Below the pieces are notes generated by a model that made no database searches, was not told where the DNA came from, and was given only the letters and a program-made list of their open reading frames with translations. The translations under genes were made by a program, and so were the position numbers. Positions 1 to 20,861 of a stretch of DNA of 64,000 nt are shown here, one piece after another. The stretch lies in assembly GCF_021631985.1 (NCBI RefSeq), contig NZ_CP070226.1, positions 124,001 to 188,000 on the forward strand, written 5' to 3'. The DNA comes from Sandaracinus amylolyticus. GTDB lineage: Bacteria; Myxococcota_A; Polyangia; Polyangiales; Sandaracinaceae. How positions within the stretch are numbered: position 1 is the stretch's first letter; every line of letters starts with the position of its first letter.

Positions 1-586
1 GATCCATCACACGCACCTCGCGCTGCTCGAGCTCGGCGATGCGCGTGTCCTTGTCGGCGAGCAGCCGCCGATCGTGCGCGAGGTATTCGCCCACCGTACC
101 AACGAGGAGCCGCTCGCGGTTCTCGAGGTGCCGCATCATCTGCGCGAGCAGACCGCGCAGCGATGCGTCGGCGTCGACGACGAGCTCGCCGCGCAGGGCG
201 TCGTCGGAGGCATCGTTCGCGGGCGCGGTCGGGCCGGAGACGCGCACCGGCATCCGTGCATAGGGCGCGTACTCGGGCCCGTAGTGGACGACCACCTCGT
301 AGAGCTGAGCGCGGCCCGGAAACGCGCTCGCGTGATCGCACACGGTCGACCAGACCTCGGCGGCGAGCTCGGCAGCGACCGGCTGATCGCCGAGCGGCCA
401 GTGCGAGACCGTTTTCGACCGGCCGTTGTGCCAGAGATGCAAGAGCGTCAGGCGCGAAGGTCGGCCCGCGTCCACGATGTCCGCGCTGAGCGCGCGCGCG
501 AGCCACGGACCGAAGTGCTCCGGCACTCGCCTCGCCAATGCCTGAGGGTGGAGCTCGGAATCGCCCGAAAGCGGAACGATACTCAC
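1..586 (-). CDS. Hypothetical protein, N-terminal part (runs off window)
   Basis: Only the first 195 codons are inside the window. The GTG start at 586 overlaps the stop of the M23 peptidase gene by four bases (GTGA), so the two are translationally coupled. The visible part has a globular region with Trp and His (LWHNGRSKTVSHWPLG) and ends in a charged heptad-like stretch (LADKDTRIAELEQREVRV) that suggests a coiled coil near the left edge. I do not recognise the family. Its place as the last visible gene of the 1-7302 operon suggests a structural or accessory role in the same system, which is inference. Confidence 0.72.
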   Translation of the reverse strand, partial: MSIVPLSGDSELHPQALARRVPEHFGPWLARALSADIVDAGRPSRLTLLHLWHNGRSKTVSHWPLGDQPVAAELAAEVWSTVCDHASAFPGRAQLYEVVVHYGPEYAPYARMPVRVSGPTAPANDASDDALRGELVVDADASLRGLLAQMMRHLENRERLLVGTVGEYLAHDRRLLADKDTRIAELEQREVRVMD

Positions 587-1872
587 GTCGTCATCCTCCC
601 AACGAGGTACAGACCACCCACCACAGCAACGGCGACACCGACGACCGTCGCCGTCGTCGCGATCGACCTCGCCGCATCGCGAACACCGTCTCCCGCGCCG
701 TTTGCGAGGCTCTCGATCGGTCCTCGTAGGGGTCGCAGTGCCGGCAGCGACGGCGCCGTCAGCTCGACGCCGCGCGCGTGTGCTCGCGCGCGCCAGTCCT
801 CGAGCGCCGTCGCGTACGACTCGACACGGGTCGCGACTTCGTCAGCGAGGCGCCGCGTGAGCGGCGCGTCGGGCCCGCGCTCGCGGTAGAGCGCGAGCCA
901 GCTCTCGCGCCACGACTTCCAGTTCTGCAAGAAGTCGAACGGAATCACCTGGCGGTAGTAGGCGCGCAGCAGGTCGCGACTCAGCGCATCGATCGACGCG
1001 TGCACCTCGCGCATGCGTGCCTCGACGTGCCCCGGCCACTGAATGCCGACGTGCGCGGCGTGCGTATCGCGCTCATTGGGCGGCCCCTCATCCATCCCAT
1101 CGCGCACATCCGGCAGCGGCTCGATGGACACGACGGGGTAAGGGGAGGGCGCGAGCGCACCAGCTCGCGCGGACATCGACGGTCGCGACGCCACACGCCC
1201 GTGCGTGCATCGATCCGCCGCTGAGCCCGGCACGATCGAAAACCGCCCGGCGTGCTCGCCCCACGGGAGCACCGGCCCCGCGATCCCGAACGTCGCGAGG
1301 TACTCGAGCGGATTGACCCACACAGATCTGAACCGCACCGGCTCGAGCGGGTCGATGCGCGGGCCGGGATACGGCGAGCCTTCGACGACGCGACGCCCGT
1401 TGTACGAGATGGCGCGCGACCGCAGTCGCGCACGGAGCTCGAGCGGGACCTGTCGCCGCACCTCGAAGTGCAGGTGCGCGCCCATTGTTGCGAACCTGCC
1501 CGAGCTCGTGCGACCAACCTCCGCGATCAGATCGCCGTGCTGCACGACCGCACCGGCCTCGACGTGCCGCCGCGACAGGTGCGCGTAGTGCGTGAACACG
1601 CCGTCCTGCTCGTGCCAGAGCACGATGCTCACGCCGTAGCCGCCGAAGCCCGGCGAGCCGTCGGGAACGGAGATGACACAGACGCCATCACGCACCGCGT
1701 AAACGGGCGTCCCGACGCCACCGAGGAGGTCCAGGCCGGCGTGCCAACGCCACCCGCTCGGACGCCGGCGCCAGCCGACCACCGTCGTCATCCGCATCCG
1801 CTCGATCGCGATCGGCGGATGCGCAGAGCACGTCGGCTGCGAGAGCCACGGCGCATCGCGGAACAGCGTCAT
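583..1872 (-). CDS. M23 (LytM-type) metallopeptidase domain protein
   Basis: About 429 residues. An M23 peptidoglycan endopeptidase domain lies near the N-terminus: HAGLD gives candidate zinc ligands H44 and D48, THYAHLS follows at 94-100, and GAHLHFEV carries H133 and H135. The spacing fits LytM-family enzymes that cut peptide cross-bridges in the cell wall. The remaining ~250 residues are not recognised and end in a hydrophobic segment (TVVGVAVAVVGGLYLVG) that could anchor the protein. No signal peptide is visible. The ATG at 1872 overlaps the upstream gene's stop (1869), and the open frame extending further upstream has shadow composition. In this operon it could act as a virion-type or secreted wall-opening enzyme. 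Confidence 0.88.
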   Translation of the reverse strand: MTLFRDAPWLSQPTCSAHPPIAIERMRMTTVVGWRRRPSGWRWHAGLDLLGGVGTPVYAVRDGVCVISVPDGSPGFGGYGVSIVLWHEQDGVFTHYAHLSRRHVEAGAVVQHGDLIAEVGRTSSGRFATMGAHLHFEVRRQVPLELRARLRSRAISYNGRRVVEGSPYPGPRIDPLEPVRFRSVWVNPLEYLATFGIAGPVLPWGEHAGRFSIVPGSAADRCTHGRVASRPSMSARAGALAPSPYPVVSIEPLPDVRDGMDEGPPNERDTHAAHVGIQWPGHVEARMREVHASIDALSRDLLRAYYRQVIPFDFLQNWKSWRESWLALYRERGPDAPLTRRLADEVATRVESYATALEDWRARAHARGVELTAPSLPALRPLRGPIESLANGAGDGVRDAARSIATTATVVGVAVAVVGGLYLVGRMTT

Positions 1873-2546
1873 AGCGCCAGCTCGAAGCAGCACACGCACG
1901 GCGCAGGCTCGGGCGTCGCGATCGTCACCTGCGCCGCGCCATTCGGCACCGGCACGAGCGGAGGTTCGACGTCCGCTGTGACCTCGATGCGAGCGAGCTC
2001 TTCGAGCGCACGATCGATGAAAGAGATCGCCATCGGCACGCGGCGCGCGGGCCCGCGCAATGCGCGTAGATACGCGGCGAACGGCGGCAGATCGATCGAG
2101 GCTTGGAACGCGCCACCTGCAGCGGCTTCGGTGCTCGTGTAGAGGGTGCGACGCGGAGACGATGAGCTCGCCGCCCCGTAGCCGGCGAACGCACCCACGC
2201 GATAGCGCGGAGCCGGAACATCCGTCGGGCCATCGACACGCGCCGACACGTGCAGGCCCGACGCGCAGACGGTGAACTGAGCGCCGCGCACGAAGTCGAC
2301 TTCCGCGGTCGCGACAGCGGGTCCGACACCCCACTGAACCTCGGCGACCACATGAGTTCCCGGCAGAATGATCGTCGTCGCAATAGGGTCGGCGAGCTCG
2401 GGACCGACGAGGCACACGGTGACGACGCGCGTCGCCGCCTCATCGCCGCCGGGGAGACGGATGAGCTGTTCGCGATGACCGGGCCACACCTCAGCGGAAC
2501 GACCGATCGCGCCGTGCTCGAGGAGCTCGGAGTAATCGCCGCGCAT
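1869..2546 (-). CDS. Hypothetical beta-rich protein
   Basis: 225 residues from an ATG at 2546 (MRGDYSELLEHG). Composition is beta-rich with alternating hydrophobic residues and no signal peptide. The C-terminus holds a Cys pair (PCVCCFELAL). The family is not recognised. It overlaps the downstream M23 gene by four bases and follows the 152-residue gene by 19 bases, so it is part of the same transcript. A structural, spike-like or minor particle protein is one possibility given the neighbours, but nothing in the sequence proves it. Confidence 0.75.
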   Translation of the reverse strand: MRGDYSELLEHGAIGRSAEVWPGHREQLIRLPGGDEAATRVVTVCLVGPELADPIATTIILPGTHVVAEVQWGVGPAVATAEVDFVRGAQFTVCASGLHVSARVDGPTDVPAPRYRVGAFAGYGAASSSSPRRTLYTSTEAAAGGAFQASIDLPPFAAYLRALRGPARRVPMAISFIDRALEELARIEVTADVEPPLVPVPNGAAQVTIATPEPAPCVCCFELAL

Positions 2547-2565
2547 GTTCGCTCCTCTGCACGCG

Positions 2566-3024
2566 CTACTGCGGTTGTCGCGCAGCGAGCACCACGTCGC
2601 GCGCGGCAACCCGCATCACGAGCACGTCGACTTCGAACGCGCACGGCGGCGCTTCCAAGCTCGCATCCGGCCCTTCGCCCACGCGCAGCCACGGCCACGC
2701 GTAGACCGCGATCGCTCCATCGTCGCGGTGCTCGACCTCGAGTTGTTCGACGTACGGATACGCGCTCGGCCGCACTGTCTGGACCGTCACGAACGAGTCG
2801 CCAGGGTCGAGCTGAGAGAAGCGCGAGAGCCGCAGGTGCACCGCTGCGGCTCCATCGAGCGCCCAGGGGCGAGCGAGGCCCTCGACGCTCCAGGGGCGCA
2901 CGAGCTCACCGTTCGGCTCGAAGCCTTCCGTGCGCAACACACGAACGTTCGATCCACCTCCGGGCGTCTGCTCGACGCGCACGCGCGCGCAGGCCCACAG
3001 GGCATCGCGAAGCAAAATCGGCAT
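2566..3024 (-). CDS. Hypothetical protein in virion-like operon
   Basis: 152 residues starting MPILLRDALWACARVRVE. The sequence is beta-rich, with several Trp and Tyr (VEQLEVEHRDDGAIAVYAWP), no signal peptide and no transmembrane segment. The family is not recognised. It sits 27 bases after the preceding gene and 19 before the next. Together with the 225-residue neighbour it forms a pair of beta-rich proteins between the helical and enzymatic members of the operon. Confidence 0.72.
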   Translation of the reverse strand: MPILLRDALWACARVRVEQTPGGGSNVRVLRTEGFEPNGELVRPWSVEGLARPWALDGAAAVHLRLSRFSQLDPGDSFVTVQTVRPSAYPYVEQLEVEHRDDGAIAVYAWPWLRVGEGPDASLEAPPCAFEVDVLVMRVAARDVVLAARQPQ

Positions 3025-3051
3025 TGGTTCTCCTTCGGGTTGAGAGCGGCG

Positions 3052-3918
3052 TTAGAAGCCGGAGGCCATCGGGGATCGCCAAAGCCAGCGCGCGCCTTCC
3101 CATGCGCCCGCGGTCGCCGCGTCGCGGTACTGCTCGCCGACGCCGACGCGAACGGCGGCCTCGTACGCGGCGCGATGCTCCACAGGCGTCCGGCTCTCGG
3201 GCGGGACGTCGCGCCACGACTCGCGCACCTCCGGTGCGTCGCCCACTGGGCTCGATGACGGAGGCGGCGGGGGCGGGAAGGGCGGAACCGCGCCCGCACG
3301 ACCGCCGAACAGACCGGAGAACAGACCGACCAGGTCCCCGAACGTCTGCTGTGGCCTCGATGATGCCGCCGGTGCCGATGCCGGCTGAGGAGCGCGAGCT
3401 CGCGCGCGCGCCGATCGCGCTGCACGCTGCGCGCCGTATGCGGTCGCGAGCACGGCGATAGTTTGACCTGCGAGCGGATTGCCGCGACGCGCAGACGCCG
3501 CGAGCGTTCCGAGATTCGCGAGCGCGCGCGGGTCACCGCGGCTTCCGCGGTCGAGAAGCGTCGTCGCCGCTCTCATCGTGTCCGCCGCAACCGGCCCGAC
3601 ACCGGGCACCATCGACACGAGCGAGTGTACGATCGGCTGGCGAACGACATCGCTCGTCACGCGCGCGACGTCGCGCACCGCGCGCGACTGCGCGAGCTGC
3701 CGTGCAGTGCGCGCGGTCTGACGAAACACCTGCCCGAAGTCGAAGCCGGCCGCCGCAGCTCGCGTCGCGAGCGCATGCGCGATGGTGTTCTCGTCCGCGC
3801 TCGCGGCGAAGCGAACGGGACCGTCAGCGGTCTCGAGCGTCGCGATCGCAATCCATCGGGACCCGTCCCGACGCACCGTGATCCGGCACGGGTACTCTCC
3901 CACGTAGAGAGGCCGCAT
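3052..3918 (-). CDS. Helical protein with PG-G-type hydrophobic core and Pro-rich linker
   Basis: 288 residues. The N-terminal ~55 residues form a small beta domain (MRPLYVGEYPCRITVRRDG). A helical part follows with the signature SLVSMVPGVGPVAADTM and two similar short units, GDPRALANLGTLA and GNPLAGQTIAVLA, suggesting an internal repeat of a helical hairpin. Then comes a Pro-rich linker (PPFPPPPPP near 215-224) and a C-terminal segment with Trp. From memory the paired hydrophobic and repeat pattern occurs next to small beta-barrel proteins in uncharacterised virus-like clusters; that recollection needs a search. Co-transcribed with its neighbours (spacing 18 and 27 bases). Confidence 0.78.
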   Translation of the reverse strand: MRPLYVGEYPCRITVRRDGSRWIAIATLETADGPVRFAASADENTIAHALATRAAAAGFDFGQVFRQTARTARQLAQSRAVRDVARVTSDVVRQPIVHSLVSMVPGVGPVAADTMRAATTLLDRGSRGDPRALANLGTLAASARRGNPLAGQTIAVLATAYGAQRAARSARARARAPQPASAPAASSRPQQTFGDLVGLFSGLFGGRAGAVPPFPPPPPPSSSPVGDAPEVRESWRDVPPESRTPVEHRAAYEAAVRVGVGEQYRDAATAGAWEGARWLWRSPMASGF

Positions 3919-3936
3919 CGTCGTCTTCCTCGCTCC

Positions 3937-5049
3937 TCACGCCCGACCGGGCGGCTGATAGGAAACGGTCTCGCGCGGCGCGAAGAGCGGCGCGGGTGCG
4001 TTTCGGACTCCGAAGTACACGAGCGCGCCCCTCGTGGTGCCTCCGTAGAGGCCATCCGCCTGCAAGCCCGCCGCACGCTGGAACCGCTGCAGCTTCTGCC
4101 TCGAATACACGAAGCCCTGCCGCGCGATCTCGGCCCCCATCTGCGGCGCCAGACGCCGAGCGAGCGCGAGGTCCACACCCGCACCACCAGGCGCGTTCAC
4201 GTTCTGGCGACGCGCTTCCGCATCGGGCCGCGATGGCTCCGACGTCGACGATGGTGCCGGCGCGCGGTGATCGGTGCGTCGAGGCGGCTCGGCCGCTGGC
4301 GGGGCCGGAGCCGCAGCGGGCGATGCAGGCGGCGCGGGCGATGCGGTCGTCGACCGTGACGGCGAAACATCAGTCGCGGGTGACGCAGGCGGAAGGTCCG
4401 CCGACATCGACGACGATGCAGGCGCAGCCGATCCCGGCGGAGGCGGCGAAACGGCTGAACGCTCCAGGTACGCGGCGCGCTGCTCGAACGCATCCGCGAG
4501 ACGCGGGTAGCCGCGTGCACGCAGTTCGGGCGCGAAGCGTCGAAGATCGGACGCGCTCGCGACGCGCATCGCGCGGCCGAACTCCTCGCGCGATGCCGCG
4601 TCGAGCCGCGCGAGTTCGCCCTCGAGCAGGTCGTCGCTGGTCGCACCTGCGGCCGGCGCGGACGTCTCACGCTCACGCGGCGGAGGCGGCGGGATCGCGG
4701 GCGCCGGAGCGCTCGGCAAAGGCTGAGCCGGCGCGATCGCAGCCGGCGCCGACGACGACTGCGCCGCCTCGGCGCGCCGCTCTGCGGCGATTAATCGCAA
4801 GGTCACGGCGGATGAGTGCCATCCTCGCGTCTCGAGCTGCTCCGCAACTTCCTCGATCTGCTCAGGCGACGGGCGCGAGGCGAGCCACGGCTCGAGCCGC
4901 GCGAGGAAATCGTTCATGAGCACCGAGTTCGGCGCTGCCGGCGGCAGCGCAGGCGGCGACGCAGAAGCAGGGGCAGGACGACGACTCGCGACCGCGACCA
5001 ACGCGGCCAACGCGCCGCCGCCCAAGAGCAGCAGCGGGATCGGACTCAT
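3937..5049 (-). CDS. Membrane-anchored Pro-rich protein with peptidoglycan-binding-like C-terminus
   Basis: 370 residues. The N-terminus is a single membrane anchor (PLLLLGGGALAALVAVASRR). Two short helical units resembling each other (EEVAEQLETRGWHSSAVTLR and RRFAPELRARGYPRLADAFE) are separated by long Ala/Pro/Ser linkers that would span the periplasm or wall. Residues ~330-352 (LQRFQRAAGLQADGLYGGTT) match the core of the PG_binding_1 fold. A tether that positions the particle or the M23 enzyme on peptidoglycan would fit. It starts 3 bases after the transglutaminase-like gene. Confidence 0.8.
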   Translation of the reverse strand: MSPIPLLLLGGGALAALVAVASRRPAPASASPPALPPAAPNSVLMNDFLARLEPWLASRPSPEQIEEVAEQLETRGWHSSAVTLRLIAAERRAEAAQSSSAPAAIAPAQPLPSAPAPAIPPPPPRERETSAPAAGATSDDLLEGELARLDAASREEFGRAMRVASASDLRRFAPELRARGYPRLADAFEQRAAYLERSAVSPPPPGSAAPASSSMSADLPPASPATDVSPSRSTTASPAPPASPAAAPAPPAAEPPRRTDHRAPAPSSTSEPSRPDAEARRQNVNAPGGAGVDLALARRLAPQMGAEIARQGFVYSRQKLQRFQRAAGLQADGLYGGTTRGALVYFGVRNAPAPLFAPRETVSYQPPGRA

Positions 5050-5052
5050 GGC

Positions 5053-5844
5053 TCAGACCTCCAGGCTCATCCCCATGCCGAGCAGCGCTGACGGGTCCTC
5101 AATCGAACCATCCGGTCGACGGACCACGATGTGATAGAGGCTGAACCGCCCCCGATCGTCGACGTGCCCCTGCTCGTTGAATCGCGTGAATCGAAAGTCC
5201 GGACGCGCCTGGATTCCCTCGCGCACGACGAGGTCACCCACGCGACCGCACGACAGGTCTTCGCAGTCGCCAAACCCCTGCTCGATGAGGCTCGGCAACG
5301 CCTGCCATCGCTCTTGTGGCAACGGCTCGGCGCGATAGACCACGCCGGACTCGTAGAGTGACGGGGTCTGCGGATACTCCCGCAGATACAGCGTATTGAT
5401 GGCCGACAGCGCCATTAGCATCGCCCGCAGCGATCGCTCGCTTCGCGCGCGCGCCGCTTCGGACTCGAACAGTTTGACCGTCAGCGCGATCGACGATGTC
5501 GGCCGACCCACGAACATCGCCTGCGCCGCACCCTCTGCTGCACGCAGCTCGGCGGCGGGGTCGCGGCCGGCGACGATTCGATCCGCTGCGCGCCAACATG
5601 CGCGCTCGATCGGTCCCGCAGCTCCCGTCGCGAGTAGGTGCGGGACCGAGCCCCACTCGCCGCCGTCTTCACCAGACGCGAGACGATCGCCAAGCACTGA
5701 GAAGCGCGCGTCCCGATGCTCACGCAGGTACGCCGCGTTGACCTCCGCGAGCGCCCTCACCAGCACCGACAGCGCTCGCTCCCGATAGCGACGCGCGCGC
5801 ACGTCGTCGTCGCGAAGTGCGCAGTCGAACACCACGCGACGCAT
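5053..5844 (-). CDS. Transglutaminase-like protein with internal duplication
   Basis: 263 residues. The C-terminal half has a credible Cys-His-Asp triad of the transglutaminase/papain-like fold: C194 in FGDCEDLS, H238 in LYHIVV and D250 in SIEDPSALLG. The N-terminal half looks like a degenerate repeat: VRALAEVNAAYLREHRDA parallels MALSAINTLYLREYPQTP, and WGSVPHLLATGAAGPIE parallels WQALPSLIEQGFGDCED, with the Cys position lost. There is no signal peptide. The enzyme could cross-link or hydrolyse a structural protein of the operon. It lies 12 bases after the beta-rich protein and 3 before the next gene. Confidence 0.8.
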   Translation of the reverse strand: MRRVVFDCALRDDDVRARRYRERALSVLVRALAEVNAAYLREHRDARFSVLGDRLASGEDGGEWGSVPHLLATGAAGPIERACWRAADRIVAGRDPAAELRAAEGAAQAMFVGRPTSSIALTVKLFESEAARARSERSLRAMLMALSAINTLYLREYPQTPSLYESGVVYRAEPLPQERWQALPSLIEQGFGDCEDLSCGRVGDLVVREGIQARPDFRFTRFNEQGHVDDRGRFSLYHIVVRRPDGSIEDPSALLGMGMSLEV

Positions 5845-5856
5845 CGCGGCCCGAGC

Positions 5857-6696
5857 TCACTCCTCGGCCCACCCGAACACCGAGCCGATGAAGCGGCGAT
5901 CGGCCGTGCCGATGTTCTGGACGGCGATCGAGATCTGCTTTCCCAGCTCGCAGACCTGGCCTCCGAACGTGCCGACCTTCGACAGCTCCGAGTACACGAT
6001 CGCAGGCGTCATCGACTGCGACCCTGCGCGCTGCGGGTTCTTGCCGACCGTCAGCTCGCAGACGAAGTCGTTGCCGATCGTGCTCGGAATGACGAGCTGG
6101 TCGACCTCGAATCGCTTCACCTGCGGGTGCACCGCGATCGTGATGAGCTGTCCCGGCGTGAGCGGCGTCTCGGACGAGAAGTTCAACGGAATGCGGTCCT
6201 CCGGCCGACGGGAACGCGCACCGCGCGTCGGCACCGGACTGCGGGCAGCCGACGCAAGACGCGCGACGGCCTGCGCGGCGCGCTGCGGCGGCACGGCCGG
6301 ACGCATCGGCACCGGGGAGATCGCACGCGGCGCGAGCGGCGGACGCGCCGCCGGACGCATCGGCATCGGCACGGGGCGTCCGAGCCGGCGCACCGGCATC
6401 GGACGACGACGACGCGCAGCGCCGACCGACGCAGCGAGCACGTCTTCGACCGTCGGAGCTCCGGCATACGCCTCGTCGTCGTACCCGACGAAGCCCTCGC
6501 CGCCGTACCCGTCGCCCGGGAACGCCTCACCGCCGTAGCCGTAGCCCTCGAGCGCCGAGAGCAGCTCCGCTCCGGAAGCGAAGCCCTGCTCCTGCGCGAT
6601 CCAGTCCAGAGCTCCGGCGATCGCGGCGTAATCCTCGGCGCCGCCGACCTCGAAATAGTCTCCTGCCGAAGCCGCGTAATCGTCTTCGAACATCAC
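5857..6696 (-). CDS. Candidate structural protein: acidic N-terminus, basic linker, beta-rich C-terminal domain
   Basis: 279 residues in three zones: an acidic Gly/Tyr-rich start (1-80), a very basic Arg/Pro linker (90-165) that could contact nucleic acid, and a compact beta-rich domain (170-279). The last domain has TPGQLITIAVHPQVKRF, DQLVIPSTIGNDFVCEL and ISIAVQNIGTADRRFIGSVF. A small beta-sandwich ending in a conserved N-G-RRF pattern is what I would expect of a small coat-like protein, but homology is not proven and ~110 residues is short for a classical jelly roll. It is the second gene of the operon, a common place for a highly expressed component. Confidence 0.75.
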   Translation of the reverse strand: MMFEDDYAASAGDYFEVGGAEDYAAIAGALDWIAQEQGFASGAELLSALEGYGYGGEAFPGDGYGGEGFVGYDDEAYAGAPTVEDVLAASVGAARRRRPMPVRRLGRPVPMPMRPAARPPLAPRAISPVPMRPAVPPQRAAQAVARLASAARSPVPTRGARSRRPEDRIPLNFSSETPLTPGQLITIAVHPQVKRFEVDQLVIPSTIGNDFVCELTVGKNPQRAGSQSMTPAIVYSELSKVGTFGGQVCELGKQISIAVQNIGTADRRFIGSVFGWAEE

Positions 6697-6744
6697 TCAC
6701 CCCGCTCGTGCTGGTGCCTGTGTCGTGACGCCTGCCGGCGTCGT

Positions 6745-7302
6745 TCAGCGCATGCGGCCGATTGCGTCGGCGAGCGCCATATCCGCGAGCATCACGCCCC
6801 GCGGCGGCGAATTGCCCGGAGGTAACACGTGCCCCTGCGCCGCCGCGCCGCCCCGCAGCTGCGGTGCCTGGGGCTGTTCGGGCGGAGGAAGCGCCGGTAC
6901 CGCGGGATCGGGCCGCGTTAGGCGACGCATCAGCGTCGCACCGGACGCAGCTCCCCATGAGCCCATCGCTCCATACGTGAACGCGAGCACGTGAGGCTTG
7001 TAGACGTTGTCCTTGTCCGACAGCGACATTGCCGTCGCCGTCAACAGACCGCCGACGCTCAACGCACCGTCGACGGGGATCCCCCACACCTCGCCCCACC
7101 CGTATTCGCGAAGACTGCCGAAGACCATCGACGAGCCGAAAACCTCCGTCGCTGCGACCAGGTTTCCCACGGCATCATCGACGTTTTCGCGCATCCCTTC
7201 GACGCGCTCACGCGCGGTCCTCATCACCGTCATCTGCGCGTCACGCGCTCGTGCGAGCGCGTTCTCCAGCGCGTCCACGTACTCGCGAGTAATCCCCGCC
7301 AT
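6745..7302 (-). CDS. Hydrophobic membrane-associated protein, first gene of operon
   Basis: 185 residues from an ATG at 7302, preceded by GGAGGC three bases upstream. An N-terminal amphipathic helix region (EYVDALENALARARDAQM) is followed by Gly/Ala-rich hydrophobic stretches (VDGALSVGGLLTATAMSL; HVLAFTYGAMGSWGAASG) that look membrane-inserting, then a Pro-rich tail. The family is not recognised. As the first gene of the 1-7302 operon it could be a membrane or pore component of the same apparatus. Confidence 0.75.
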   Translation of the reverse strand: MAGITREYVDALENALARARDAQMTVMRTARERVEGMRENVDDAVGNLVAATEVFGSSMVFGSLREYGWGEVWGIPVDGALSVGGLLTATAMSLSDKDNVYKPHVLAFTYGAMGSWGAASGATLMRRLTRPDPAVPALPPPEQPQAPQLRGGAAAQGHVLPPGNSPPRGVMLADMALADAIGRMR

Positions 7303-7692
7303 TGCGCCTCCAAGATGCCTGTCGACTCGCGATCTCAAAACACCAAGAACGTCCGTCGACTACCGTCTTTCGTGTTCTTGAGCGTGTCATTTGACTACGC
7401 AACATCGTTCGACGGACATGCCACAACAGCCGGGCCCCTCTCTCATCCGATCCCGCGGGACCGCTGCAATTTCGCGCCTCAGGACACGTTCTAGTTTCGC
7501 GCACTTAGATATCGCTTGCAGCAATCCGCGGGCCCCTCATGAGGGGCCCGGCGCGAATTGCTGCAATTCGCACCGGGATCGATTTTACATCCTGGAAACC
7601 CGAGCATGCATCCGAGCCCCTCGGACAGACCGAGTCTCGGCGCTCGCGACAGCGCGCAGCCGAGCTCTCGGTTCGGCCGACGGTAAGCGTCA
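7303..7692. other. Intergenic region upstream of the virion-like operon
   Basis: 390 bases without a gene. The part next to the operon start is AT-richer than its surroundings and has an inverted repeat CAAGAAC (7344-7350) / GTTCTTG (7375-7381). The other half holds the nested palindrome listed separately. It probably contains the operon promoter and the end of the ParB-like transcript. Confidence 0.5.
7516..7571. promoter_or_regulatory. Nested palindromes: possible operator, centromere-like site or terminator
   Basis: Outer arms TTGCAGCAAT (7516-7525) and ATTGCTGCAA (7557-7566) enclose a perfect 22-base palindrome at 7529-7550 with half-site CGGGCCCCTCA. A third inverted repeat, GCGAATTG / CAATTCGC (7553-7560 and 7564-7571), overlaps the right outer arm. 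Such stacked dyads are typical of protein-binding sites. The site lies directly downstream of a ParB/KorB-like gene, so a parS-like or operator role is possible. A strong transcription terminator is the main alternative, although no T tract follows. Confidence 0.6.
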
Positions 7693-8553
7693 TCAAGGAC
7701 GGCGATGACGCCGGCGCCGACGAGGACGCGGCGGCGAAAGCAGACCGATCTCGTCTTCGACCGTTGCGCCGCTGCACACGGCCTCGAGCTTCTCGAGCAG
7801 CTCGCGTTTCCCGGCGGCCACGCCTGCCTCGTACGTGTTCGGCGGGAAGGCTTGCCTTCTCTCCCATTCGATCACGGCGCGGAGCCAACGGCGGATGAGC
7901 CGCACACCGACGGCGGGCTTGCGTGCTCTCTCCTCGTCCTCCGGCGAGAGCTCGCCTCGCTCGACCGACGCTCGTGTCCGCGTGAGCGCCTCGACCCACG
8001 CCTCCGGTCGCTGCGGAGGGCTGCGCACGTCGCGCCACGCAAGCCGCCCATCGCGCCACGCGTCGATCGCAGGCACCGGCAAGCGTTCCAGCGCTTGAAG
8101 GCTCCGCTTCACCGTCGACAGCGACAGGCCGGTGCGGCGCGCGATTTCGGTCGGCGTCACGTCCAGCAGGCGCAGCGCACGCACGCCGAGCGCGCGCTCG
8201 TACGTCGTCATGATGGGCTTGTTCGCGAGGAAGTTCCGGAGCCGCGCGTCGAGCTCGGTCGTCGTCGACGGGAGGAACTGCGCAGGCACGGCCTCGTAGC
8301 CGAGCGCTGCGTGCGCAGCGATCACCTCGTGCCCGACGATCACGACGCCGCGCACGCCCGTGGGCGTCGCACACCAACGAACGGGCGTTCGCACCGCGAT
8401 CACGACGCCAGTGCTCGGCACGCCACGCGGGTCGGCGCGCCCTGCGGCCACGATCGCCGCGACGCGCGATTCAGGATCCGTGAGCGTGTTCCACGTGTCA
8501 TCCGCGAAAAGCTGCTCGCGCGGGCAGAGCTCCACAGAAGAAGGCGTCGACAT
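7693..8553 (-). CDS. ParB/KorB-like DNA-binding protein
   Basis: 286 residues from an ATG at 8553. The N-terminal half looks like a ParB-type sulfiredoxin-like fold (VVIAVRTPVRWCATPTGVRG, GHEVIAAHAALGYEAVPAQ). The middle has a clear helix-turn-helix of the ParB/KorB kind (LDVTPTEIARRTGLSLSTVK). The C-terminus is Arg-rich (PPRPRRRRRHRRP). Such proteins bind short palindromes and act in partition, plasmid or phage maintenance, or transcription. No ParA neighbour is visible. It is upstream of, and co-directional with, the virion-like operon, so it may regulate or segregate the same element. Confidence 0.68.
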   Translation of the reverse strand: MSTPSSVELCPREQLFADDTWNTLTDPESRVAAIVAAGRADPRGVPSTGVVIAVRTPVRWCATPTGVRGVVIVGHEVIAAHAALGYEAVPAQFLPSTTTELDARLRNFLANKPIMTTYERALGVRALRLLDVTPTEIARRTGLSLSTVKRSLQALERLPVPAIDAWRDGRLAWRDVRSPPQRPEAWVEALTRTRASVERGELSPEDEERARKPAVGVRLIRRWLRAVIEWERRQAFPPNTYEAGVAAGKRELLEKLEAVCSGATVEDEIGLLSPPRPRRRRRHRRP

Positions 8554-9062
8554 GCCCAAGTTGTCGACGTGAACGCCGGAAGAGTTTCGTACCGTCCCCG
8601 CGGGATGTCGTTGAAATCAGTTCAGTATTTCGCCTCCGCCGGAAAATAGTCGGAATGGTCCGACAGGAGCAGGTCCGGATACTGGTCGTCGTCGATCCCG
8701 CACGTCCGAATGGACCCATGATTTGAGGCCGAGCGGTAGCCAAACAGGAATTTCGGTAAGCCCCCTCGAACCGTCCGCGTGCCGCACAGGGATCCCCGTT
8801 CGTAGACGGCGCGACAGCGCTGTAGTCCCGCGGGCAACGCACGACTGCCCAGGCGCGGCTCGGACGGACCCCACGCTCGCGCGCACGAGTGGGCGACGTG
8901 GAACGATCGCACTCGCCATCCCCGATCGCCCTGCGGCAAGCACGAACCCGCTCGGCATGTCGAGCTCGTCGCTGCACTCAATCGAGGCGCTCGATGATCG
9001 CACGGCACGCGGCCTGCTTTGGGCGTCGCGCGCCGCGCCGTTGCGCGCGGCGAGGAGGCCGT
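8554..9062. other. Intergenic region, possible gene remnant
   Basis: About 500 bases between the ParB-like gene (leftward) and a lipoprotein gene (rightward). A minus-strand stretch near 8622-8720 ending DDQYPDLLLSDHSDYF has natural-looking residue use and may be the tail of a lost gene, but no start or family could be assigned. The right end holds a good ribosome-binding site (GAGGAGG) for the gene at 9063. Confidence 0.4.
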
Positions 9063-11074: not shown

Positions 11075-11168
11075 ACGATAGGAGCGGCACCCCACCGAGC
11101 GCCAGGTTGAAGAGCGCGCTGCACGCGAGTTTTCGTCGTCGTGGCTCGCTCCTCCCAGGAAAGAACCC

Positions 11169-11609
11169 ATGAACGAACATCCTCTCTACGGTCGCCCGGT
11201 CGGCGAGCACTCGGGGCGCTTCGGCGCCGGCGGGTGGCTCTGGTACATCGGCGGAATCCTCGTCGCGGCCGGCGTGATGAACACTGGTCAGGGCGCGCTC
11301 GCGTTGTTCGGCGGAGCGCCCGATGCGCTGACGAAGATCGGCATGGGTGTCGTCGCGGGCGCGATCGGCGCCGCGATCCTGCTCGTCGCGGTGATGCGGT
11401 GGCGCCAGCACGTCGTCGTGTACGAGCGAGGGCTCGTGTACGCGAAGCTGCTGGGCCAGCAGCAGGTCGCGTTCGCCGACGTCACGCGCGTCGAGCTCGT
11501 GCGCGAGCACTCGAAGATGGGCACCGACGAGACGATCCACATCGCGCTGCGCGACGGTCGCGAGGTCTCGATCGGCAGCGTCACGAACATCGATCAGCTC
11601 GCCGGATGA
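11169..11609 (+). CDS. Small membrane protein with PH-like domain (intact copy of a duplicated cassette)
   Basis: 146 residues. Two hydrophobic segments (GGWLWYIGGILVAAGVMNTG; MGVVAGAIGAAILLVAVM) are followed by a cytoplasmic beta domain with VVYERGLVYAKLLGQQQVAF and IHIALRDGREVSIGS, the pattern of bacterial PH-like/DUF6585-type domains. Role unknown. The next gene starts 40 bases on, so they probably form an operon. A decayed inverted copy of both genes lies at 20038-20766. Confidence 0.78.
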   Translation: MNEHPLYGRPVGEHSGRFGAGGWLWYIGGILVAAGVMNTGQGALALFGGAPDALTKIGMGVVAGAIGAAILLVAVMRWRQHVVVYERGLVYAKLLGQQQVAFADVTRVELVREHSKMGTDETIHIALRDGREVSIGSVTNIDQLAG

Positions 11610-11649
11610 TCCGGCACGCCCCCTGAACCGAGCTCGGAGAGACAGACCG

Positions 11650-12342
11650 ATGACCTACTTGATCCCCCTCGTCGCGCTCGTGGCCGTCGTCGCGTTCATG
11701 GTCCTGCAGCGCCAGCGTCTCGCACAGGCGGGCCAGACCTACGCTCCATTCGAGCTGAGCAAGCTCGCGCCCCGTCTGGGCCTGCAGATCGTCAACGGCG
11801 ACCCCGGCGCGAACATCATGCTCGCGCCGCACAACACGGTCGGGACGCGCATCTCGGACGACAAGCCGTACGAGTGGAACGTGCGCCTGCAGGGCTCGCC
11901 GCGCGGTCGCCCCGTCGACTTCCTCTACTACCACCGCCGCGAGCGCCAGACCGGCCTCGTCGAGATCAAGTACACGTACTACGACGACGCGTTCATCGCG
12001 GTGCAGCTGCGCCCCGGCGCGCCCGAATTCGAGCTCGTCTCGAACCAGAGCAGCCTCGGCGCGATCTCGCGCCGTCACCCGTGGCCGGTGCAGCGCTCCG
12101 GGGATCCGAACGTCGGTCGCGAATTCACGATCGCCGCGAACGATCCGAGCGTGGGCGCGAAGCTCGCGCCGTTCCTCTCGCGCTTCGATCCCGCGCTGCG
12201 CGCGTACGGCATCCACCTCGAGTCGCACGGCGGATGGCTGCGCTTCCGCGCCGACGGCAAGCACACGAGCGGGAACTTCTACTTCATCGAGCAGATCGTC
12301 CCGGCGCTCGAGCAGATCGCGGATCGCCTCGAGCAGCCCTGA
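11650..12342 (+). CDS. Membrane-anchored hypothetical protein (second gene of duplicated cassette)
   Basis: 230 residues. One N-terminal anchor (MTYLIPLVALVAVVAFMVLQ) is followed by a soluble domain with many aromatic residues (VDFLYYHRRERQTGLVEIKY) and a helical end. The family is not recognised. Its pairing with the PH-like membrane protein is conserved in both copies in this window, supporting a shared job at the membrane. Confidence 0.78.
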   Translation: MTYLIPLVALVAVVAFMVLQRQRLAQAGQTYAPFELSKLAPRLGLQIVNGDPGANIMLAPHNTVGTRISDDKPYEWNVRLQGSPRGRPVDFLYYHRRERQTGLVEIKYTYYDDAFIAVQLRPGAPEFELVSNQSSLGAISRRHPWPVQRSGDPNVGREFTIAANDPSVGAKLAPFLSRFDPALRAYGIHLESHGGWLRFRADGKHTSGNFYFIEQIVPALEQIADRLEQP

Positions 12343-13251
12343 TTTCCCGGGCGGGACGTGCGCTACGGATTCCGTAGCGCACGCCCGTGATACCGTCGTC
12401 GCGTGGGTGAATTCGACGACCTCGACAACGAGAAGACGCTGGTCGAGGAAGCGCAAGCGGCGACGTGCGCGACGAGGAGGCGGCGACGACGACGTGAGTG
12501 GGAACCGAGATCGATCACCATCTGGCTGCCGTCGGGGCCCTGCGCCCGAGCGCGTAAAAAAGATACGGTGGGCCGCTCGCCGCGCTCGGACGTCCGTACG
12601 CCGATCTCGCTCCAGCCGCGCGCGGGGTGATCCGCTCGAGAAGGCGGATTACCGCGGCTGCAGCCGCCGTCAAACGGGGTCGGAAGCGCTGCCAGGGAAA
12701 GACGAAGGCCGACCCGGACCACCGACGTGGCGAGTTCCCAATAGTTTCCGCCGGCCTCGTCGCAGAGCGCCTCCAAGGGGCACGCAGGCCAGGCGGCAGG
12801 CACCGAAAGACAACGACCGACCCGAGGACCCAGCCGAGGCCCCGGAACAGCCGCGCAGTGCGGCATCGCGCTCGAGGCGAGGATCTGCTCGCTCGCGCCC
12901 GAACACTCACCGGCTCGCCAGCGGACACCTCACTGAATGCGAAATTCCAGACGTTGAGAGCGATACCGTCCGAGAGAGGCTTCGACAGAATACACTCCTG
13001 GCTCGGCCGGTAACCGGAAGAACCGAACCAAATCGATGTGAAACTGGCTGAGTTCTCCCCCAGCTTTGATCGCGTGCTCGCGCGCTGAGGCGCGCCCGAA
13101 TGAGCGTCGCTCCGGTGCCCAGCTCCGCGCATTGCGCCAGCGCGCTTCGAGGCCCGCGATTCGAGCGGGTCAAGCGCGTAACAGCAATTGCTCGAATACG
13201 ACCGGCACCAGTACGGGTAGTAGGCGCTGGTGCTGCTACATCCTTCCTGGT
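12343..13251. other. Gene-poor region with one N-terminal fragment
   Basis: About 900 bases with no convincing gene. A GTG at 12403 opens a frame whose first residues (MGEFDDLDNEKTLVEEAQAA) look genuinely coding, but it then becomes Arg-rich low-quality sequence and stops at 12630. It is best read as the start of a decayed gene. The longer open frames here have shadow-like Arg/Ser composition. Confidence 0.4.
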
Positions 13252-20037: not shown

Positions 20038-20286
20038 TCATAGGCTCGCAGCCTGGACCGCGAGACCCTCGCCGCATAGACGGGGCTCGGCAGCGCGTAC
20101 TTCCGACCGTGTTGTGCGGCGCGAGCATGGGGATCGCCGTTCACGATCGAGAAGGCCGAGACGTGGCGCGAGCTTGCTCAGCTCGAAGGGCGCGTAGGTC
20201 TGTCCGGCCTGCGCGAGCCGCTGTCGCTGCAGGATCAAGAACGCGACCACGACGACGATCACGACGAGGGGCATCAAGTAGGTCAT
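20038..20286 (-). pseudogene. Truncated copy of the membrane-anchored protein at 11650
   Basis: The first ~45 residues (MTYLMPLVVIVVVVAFLILQ, then QAGQTYAPFELSKLAPRLGL) match the intact protein. An internal deletion and frameshift follow, and only a scrambled tail remains before the stop. The rest of the domain (about 150 residues) is gone. Confidence 0.85.
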
Positions 20287-20308
20287 CTGACGGTCTCTCT
20301 CCGAGCGG

Positions 20309-20766
20309 TCAGGGCGCGTGCCGGATCATCCCGGCGAGCTGATCGATGTTCGTGACGCCGCCGATCGACACCTCGCGTCCATCGCGCAGCGCCACGTAGA
20401 TCGTCTCGTCGGTGCCCATTTTCGAATGCTCGCGGACGAGCTTCACGTGCGTGACGTCGGCGAACGCGACCTCCTGGCGACCGAGCAGCTTCGTGTGCAC
20501 GAGCCCGCGCTCGTACACGACGACCTGCTGCCGCCACTTCGTCGCGCAGTACAGCAACATCAGCGCGCCGATCGCGCCGGCGACGACGCCCATGCCGATC
20601 TTCGTCAGCGCGTCGGGCGCTTCGCCGAACAACGCGAGCGCGCCCTGACCAGTGTTCATCACACCGGCGACGACGAGGATCCCGCCGACGTACCAGAGCC
20701 AGCCGCCGGCGCCGAAGCGCCCGCGTGCTCACCGACGGGTCGACCGTAGAGAGGATGTTCGTTCAT
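20309..20766 (-). pseudogene. Frameshifted copy of the PH-like membrane protein at 11169
   Basis: The original ATG at 20766 (MNEHPLYGRPVGEH) is kept, but a one-base deletion about 15 codons in shifts the frame to an early stop. From 20662 onward the correct frame is open again (NTGQGALALFGEAPDALTKI to GREVSIGGVTNID). A one-base change at the end also removes the native stop, adding residues. It precedes the truncated second gene, so the whole cassette was duplicated in inverted orientation. Confidence 0.85.
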
Positions 20767-20861
20767 GACAACGATTGGAGATCACGCGTGGGGAGCAAGC
20801 CGCGACGAACACGAGGAGGTCCGACGTGCACTCCGAGAAGCCGAACGCGAAGAGCCGTACA

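Follow-up and report, generated by a model that had tools for sequence, protein, structure and literature searches.

A tightly packed, co-directional gene cluster lies at the left end of a 64,000-nt window from Sandaracinus amylolyticus (bases 124,001 to 188,000 of the 209,732-bp contig NZ_CP070226.1; record position = window position + 124,000). The contig matches the circular plasmid pSa001 of Sandaracinus sp. MSr10575 (NZ_MW053453.1) in length and gene coordinates. In the NZ_MW053453.1 annotation, the cluster consists mostly of hypothetical proteins, the exceptions being a metalloendopeptidase, a peptidoglycan-binding protein, and a winged-helix regulator. The original prediction had proposed a virion-like or wall-acting particle cluster with M23, peptidoglycan (PG)-binding-like, and transglutaminase (TGase)-like genes, preceded by a ParB/KorB-like gene and nested palindromes. 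All described genes are present, intact, on the minus strand, and close-packed, in agreement with the PGAP annotation of the same DNA; the three named gene types were confirmed by Pfam, PGAP, and a Cys-His-Asp (C-H-D) triad, and the upstream gene and palindromes were likewise recovered. The cluster is, however, longer than had been stated: it runs past position 1 leftward to pSa001 122,528, which adds two more genes and the remainder of the gene at 1 to 526 for a size of ~10 kb. Read from right to left in window coordinates, its features are as follows.

7693-8559, minus strand (PGAP start 8553): winged-helix DNA-binding protein of the ParB/KorB-like type, candidate for a regulatory or partition role (PHROG ParB-like, 1.1e-5; HTH_24, 2.6e-5)
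7516-7577, no strand: two overlapping pairs of nested inverted repeats (15-nt arms that are 93% complementary) in the intergenic, putatively regulatory region that precedes the structural operon
6745-7302, minus strand: M protein, Gly/Ala-rich with a charged N-terminus; its gene opens the conserved module (36-member family)
5857-6696, minus strand: candidate major capsid protein (B), with an acidic N-terminal segment bearing repeated small-residue/Gly motifs, a basic segment, and a predicted C-terminal single jelly-roll (5860-6204)
5053-5844, minus strand: TGase-like C-H-D cysteine enzyme, possible capsid maturation protease (invariant triad; tandem duplication)
3937-5049, minus strand: N-terminally anchored protein with a C-terminal PG-binding domain, candidate cell-wall-contact protein (PG_binding_1, 3.6e-4; family PGB)
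3052-3918, minus strand: conserved module protein of family F3052 with a hydrophobic VPGVGPVAA segment (relatives in loci L016, L017, L019, L020/L052, and L049)
2566-3024, minus strand: small beta-rich protein, no family match, assigned by position only
1869-2546, minus strand: F1869, a beta-rich protein of 225 aa that may be a second capsid protein or a vertex protein (42-member family; adjoins the capsid-fold gene in type II elements)
583-1872, minus strand: M23 endopeptidase joined to a coiled region that leads into a C-terminal membrane anchor (Peptidase_M23, Pfam 1.3e-19; hydrophobic residues 400 to 419)
1-526, minus strand: N-terminal part of a coiled-coil protein from family F340, whose gene extends leftward to pSa001 123,660

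Nine other genomes of the order yielded relatives of the TGase-like protein, two of which were weak matches. In IMG/VR and GTDB, scans with single sequences gave no match; only an alignment of seven TGase-like relatives (A1) succeeded, yielding 5 IMG/VR viral contigs (77 to 203 kb) and 37 loci in GTDB genomes (the sets overlap), mostly in Myxococcota and other proteobacterial metagenome-assembled genomes (MAGs). The IMG/VR classification is automatic, and some of the GTDB contigs are surely misbinned. When the TGase-like, capsid-fold, and type II TGase proteins were run against INPHARED, no credible match resulted. Genes on the relatives were called with a simple purpose-made caller, supplemented by profile searches, and the module proved to recur in conserved order at about 40 other loci, in both GTDB genomes and IMG/VR viral contigs, with two arrangements. 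Type I loci follow the order of the window (M, B, TGase, PG-binding, F3052, F1869, M23, coil/anchor, F340), and type II loci, mostly on larger contigs, have the order M, B, F1869, small beta protein, TGase. Wherever both occur, the M gene is separated from the downstream capsid-fold gene by at most one other gene. Among 43 gene-called loci with a TGase gene, B was six or fewer genes upstream in 35 and seven genes upstream in one (L025), while in the remaining seven the contig starts after the expected place of B. B thus precedes the TGase-like gene in 36 of 36 loci with sufficient contig reach, a conservation of order far beyond chance. The module genes of the relatives are under purifying selection: in one pair of MAG copies, the ratio of nonsynonymous to synonymous substitution rates (dN/dS; NG86, own script) was 0.14 for the B domain, 0.11 for the TGase-like enzyme, and <0.5 for the rest (range, 0.11 to 0.49), with values up to 0.86, for the M protein, in a second pair.

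The B proteins have a shared architecture. In 35 of 37 nonredundant members, an acidic segment is followed by a basic one and then by a domain of ~110 residues; the best 30 residues contain a median of 18 D/E and 14 R/K, and the window copy is weaker (8 and 10). AlphaFold2 with a 29-row alignment modeled the domain at 5860 to 6204 as a beta sandwich of about eight strands (predicted local distance difference test [pLDDT] score, 91.2; predicted template modeling score, 0.83), whereas an alignment-free prediction covering all 279 aa of the protein gave no usable model (pLDDT, 45). A jelly-roll-type fold for the C-terminal domain is well supported by this model. The structural check that the original prediction had suggested placed viral capsid proteins on top, those of SPV1 (VIA-align Z 8.3, 110 residues, 3.0 Å) and HHIV-2 (Z 8.2, 104 residues), but tied with cellular jelly rolls. 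No double-jelly-roll capsid protein appeared among the VIA-align matches listed, an outcome that excludes nothing, and profile searches of the PDB with two alignments (A6 and A7) returned only noise. Since fold alone is insufficient, it is fold and genomic context together that make this product probably a capsid protein.

The enzyme encoded next to it retains C194, H238, and D250 in all 31 relatives and belongs to no Pfam family. Weak PDB profile matches to LapG (4fgo and 4u65; E 0.3 to 0.8) were obtained, LapG being among the few matches in both searches, and the GDCED catalytic motif and C-H-D order are shared with LapG-type cysteine proteinases; unlike these, the enzyme has no Pfam match and is encoded in a virus-like operon. 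Matches of alignment A8 to designed filaments were set aside, as these matches cover the N-terminal helical part and not the catalytic part. The window copy is a tandem duplication (blastp 1.8e-6) whose N-terminal half lacks the catalytic Cys (GPIERACWR versus GDCEDLSCGR). LapG cleaves its substrate at a small-residue motif, and several of the capsid-candidate arms carry repeated AVAG/AIAG or DLG motifs. Given these motifs, the LapG matches, and the known LapG cleavage preference, it is possible that the C-H-D enzyme matures the capsid protein.

Several of the contigs that bear the module have features of viral genomes. One of them, L082 (G039:C73, 14,773 bp), ends in terminal repeats of 131 bp, 117 bp of them exact, which suggests a circle of ~14.64 kb, and it encodes an HUH Rep (Rep_1, 1.2e-12) immediately upstream of the M, B, and TGase genes; this Rep resembles both plasmid and filamentous-phage Reps. 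A 108-kb contig, G058, has 138-bp repeated ends. Both it and the 106-kb G060 encode DNA polymerase A, helicases, DUF3987, methyltransferases, an integrase or resolvase, and wall hydrolases, and G060 also encodes a ribonucleotide reductase; replication genes of this kind are typical of viruses. The wall-acting domains in other module loci include GH25, NlpC/P60, SLT, and M15. As a side observation, the C-terminal tails of the L082 Rep and of a coiled protein family are SSB-like (ADIPF, AGDVPF, and DEVPF; L082:12948-13988, L082:1572-2072, and pSa001 122,528-123,244), which suggests that these are replication-linked proteins.

It is quite likely that the cluster is a virion-like module shared by a widespread family of elements that has not been described before. 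More specifically, we interpret it as the late operon, encoding the structural proteins, of a new family of tailless viruses with a single jelly roll, maintained as plasmids or integrated proviruses mainly in Myxococcota (probability, roughly 0.68). A tailless module is supported by the single-jelly-roll model near SPV1 and HHIV-2, by the viral contigs, by the Rep contig with repeated ends, and by the lack of recognizable tail and terminase genes. The original prediction is supported as regards a tailless, virion-like module, whereas its comparison with PM2, PRD1, and FLiP is not supported for the 5857-6696 protein, which is modeled with one jelly roll. In the proposed mechanism, the ParB-like regulator would act at the palindromes to control the operon, and the jelly-roll protein would form the shell. 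Its acidic/basic N-terminal arm may serve first as a built-in scaffold and later as a DNA- or membrane-facing arm, once the C-H-D enzyme has cut it at the small-residue/Gly motifs. The PG-binding and M23 proteins (elsewhere GH25, NlpC/P60, SLT, and M15) would bring the genome through the wall.

Several observations weigh against this interpretation. The Z scores of ~8 are middling and are equaled by the cellular jelly rolls of peptidylglycine monooxygenase (PHM) and nucleoplasmin cores. The best Foldseek matches in the PDB were furin P-domains, with no E value below 0.001, and the best viral ones were tailed-phage proteins. No sequence match to any known capsid protein was found, including in Pfam and PHROGs, and no packaging enzyme was found. 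The protease step depends on the weak LapG matches, and the arm motifs are poorly developed in the window copy and missing from some relatives (L024 and L025). An internal membrane is unproven: hydropathy gives clear transmembrane segments in only two proteins of the window cluster, at the C-terminus of the 583-1872 product and the N-terminus (residues 1 to 23) of the 3937-5049 product. The proteins at 6745-7302 and 3052-3918 are Gly/Ala-rich, but hydropathy does not clearly make them membrane proteins.

The strongest competing explanation is that the viral module on pSa001 is a captured or domesticated remnant in an ordinary plasmid, with the parA region and repeats described below unrelated to it and no pSa001 particle made. 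Only the ~10-kb cluster is clearly common to other elements, the rest of pSa001 being host- or plasmid-like. No Rep or integrase was recognized beside the module, nor was a Rep identified for the 210-kb plasmid, and some small module copies adjoin host-like genes in MAG contigs. Yet all open reading frames in the window are intact, the relatives are under purifying selection, and related modules occur on contigs of comparable size (77 to 207 kb). We give this explanation a substantial chance, somewhat short of even. Left of the cluster, where the original prediction had sought a packaging ATPase and had considered a secretion or sporulation operon as grounds for refutation, neither was found; the neighbors are a plasmid parA (pSa001 118,113-118,772; CbiA, 3.5e-20) and a ribbon-helix-helix (RHH) gene. 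Directly upstream of parA are 37.6 perfect copies of the 16-bp unit CAAGCTCACGAGCTAC (pSa001 117,232-117,833; L002:13232-13833), a candidate centromere or iteron array of pSa001. Most simply, parA/RHH and this array would form the partition locus of pSa001, and the distance from parA/RHH to the module on the circular plasmid is 3 to 4 kb. A phage-plasmid is defined as one replicon that combines maintenance and virion genes and is transmitted in particles; pSa001 carries parA/RHH and a virion-like module, and it is possible, though less likely than not, that it is a live phage-plasmid and not the carrier of a captured module.

A second alternative, a highly divergent tailed-phage structural module whose jelly-roll protein would decorate the head or form a turret, appears unlikely. 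The turret protein of HFTV1 scored Z 7.8 in VIA-align, tailed-phage proteins are among the viral Foldseek matches, and one G058 protein has a relative labeled "virion structural protein" in cyanomyoviruses and HMO-2011. However, the hallmarks of Caudoviricetes (large terminase, portal, HK97 capsid protein, and tail) were not seen in G058, G060, L082, or the module proteins. No large terminase (TerL) was above the cutoff in seven records (one match was subthreshold), and no portal, HK97 capsid, or tail PHROG was seen among the module proteins or in the 14.6-kb, 106-kb, and 108-kb contigs, judged for G060 and G058 partly from the best 25 families listed. The 14.6-kb contig leaves little space for a tail module. 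Pfam and PHROG scans likewise bear out the original prediction that recognizable terminase, portal, and tail genes are missing. Two individual matches were rejected: a PHROG "major head protein" (phrog_10) in L082, where the protein looks coiled-coil, and a "baseplate hub" in G058, which is an SLT lysozyme domain. The least probable alternative, a nonviral, host-useful wall-acting or injection device, could draw on the many wall-active domains and on the occurrence mainly in Myxococcota, many of them predators, but the module is carried by elements that have viral replication genes and by the Rep-encoding contig with its repeated ends, is missing from a complete same-genus genome (G008), and includes no sheath, tube, or secretion genes. 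The injection device of the original prediction found no support.

Compared with known viruses, the anatomy of the module elements looks like that of a single-jelly-roll tailless virus. SPV1 (Portogloboviridae) provides the top structural match and, like FLiP, lacks a packaging ATPase (PMC8812541), but it has an archaeal host and no detected sequence similarity, and its match is tied with cellular jelly rolls. The Simuloviridae are episomal, tailless single-jelly-roll viruses with circular 16- to 19-kb genomes and an HUH Rep (PMC12642351). Together with the Sphaerolipoviridae (Helvetiavirae; SNJ1 and HHIV-2), they resemble our elements in the HHIV-2 match and in the small, circular-looking, Rep-encoding genome of L082 (14.6 kb), whereas the window copy resides on a 210-kb plasmid. 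The elements differ from Helvetiavirae in the plasmid/filamentous-phage type of the L082 Rep, in their bacterial hosts, and in the size of some related contigs (>100 kb). A packaging ATPase of the FtsK-HerA/A32 type is usual in Helvetiavirae, but no FtsK_SpoIIIE/HerA match was found in five viral contigs (those in G000 and G039 were chromosomal only; a very divergent ATPase could escape), and no P-loop protein was called in L082; for this reason, we do not file the elements there. FLiP (Finnlakeviridae), PM2, and PRD1 are also tailless, and FLiP also lacks a packaging ATPase (PMC8812541), but they have a double jelly roll, and no Pfam or PHROG sequence match links them to the 5857-6696 protein.

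Known tailless prokaryotic jelly-roll viruses are mostly small, and the single-jelly-roll ones come chiefly from archaea and Thermus. More speculatively still, the elements might constitute a bacterial virus group of high rank, new to science, with a small single-jelly-roll capsid protein, their own acidic/basic scaffold arm, and LapG-like maturation, without a recognizable packaging ATPase or tail. Such a group would range from ~15 kb (rolling-circle Rep) to >100 kb (own DNA polymerase and ribonucleotide reductase) and include natural-product megaplasmids such as pSa001 as phage-plasmids. With a common Myxococcota family whose members reach at least 100 kb, the virus world with jelly-roll capsids would extend into predatory bacteria, capsids without a recognizable packaging motor would gain another case beside SPV1 and FLiP, and what rides on pSa001, the carrier of the sandarazol genes, would be explained.

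Myxobacterial plasmids are rare, and pSa001 is among the few known (PMC11705834, PMC11237760); the sandarazols are encoded on the plasmid of strain MSr10575 (PMC9306752). The available portions of these three reports contain no mention of a virus-like nature of pSa001. Because the cluster is absent from G008, the module is accessory DNA; an empty site was sought in that complete genome and none was found, only a 1.3-kb repeat being in common. This sequence, at 92% identity to G008, occurs at window positions 11167-12449 and 20103-20808 and elsewhere on the plasmid (L004/L003 region).

Among the remaining cluster features, the palindromes separate the ParB-like gene from the first gene of the cluster, and L017 has a ParB-like gene at the equivalent place (recognized by reading the sequence; no Pfam match). 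The PG_binding_1 match is slightly under the curated cutoff. The M23 and coil regions are separate genes in L016 and L017, and the 2566-3024 protein has counterparts by position in L016, L017, and L049 with no detectable sequence similarity. A profile comparison of the F1869 family with the capsid-fold family detected no similarity. F340 relatives are L016_3, L017_17, L020_2/L052_14, L048_16, and L049_17.

Other observations concern individual module loci. The module is present on about ten contigs of a single MAG (Umea1p3_bin-980), and a 207-kb module-bearing contig (L064; CAMAXZ010000003.1, 206,676 bp) in a MAG labeled Klebsiella pneumoniae is very likely a misbinned element. Proteins of 1,800 to 3,500 aa, some with a GYSGWGG motif, are encoded in L053 (13654-19014) and beside the module in G058, G060, and G061; the large proteins beside the module had no PHROG match beyond noise, and, judged from the motif only, they are possibly DarB-like helicase/methylase proteins. 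In L021 (G014:C20), a TGase-family match at the contig edge adjoins genes that read like cas1 and cas2. Finally, four related proteins with an N-terminal NPFPG motif adjoin the module on a 202-kb IMG/VR contig (L024:5905-9883).

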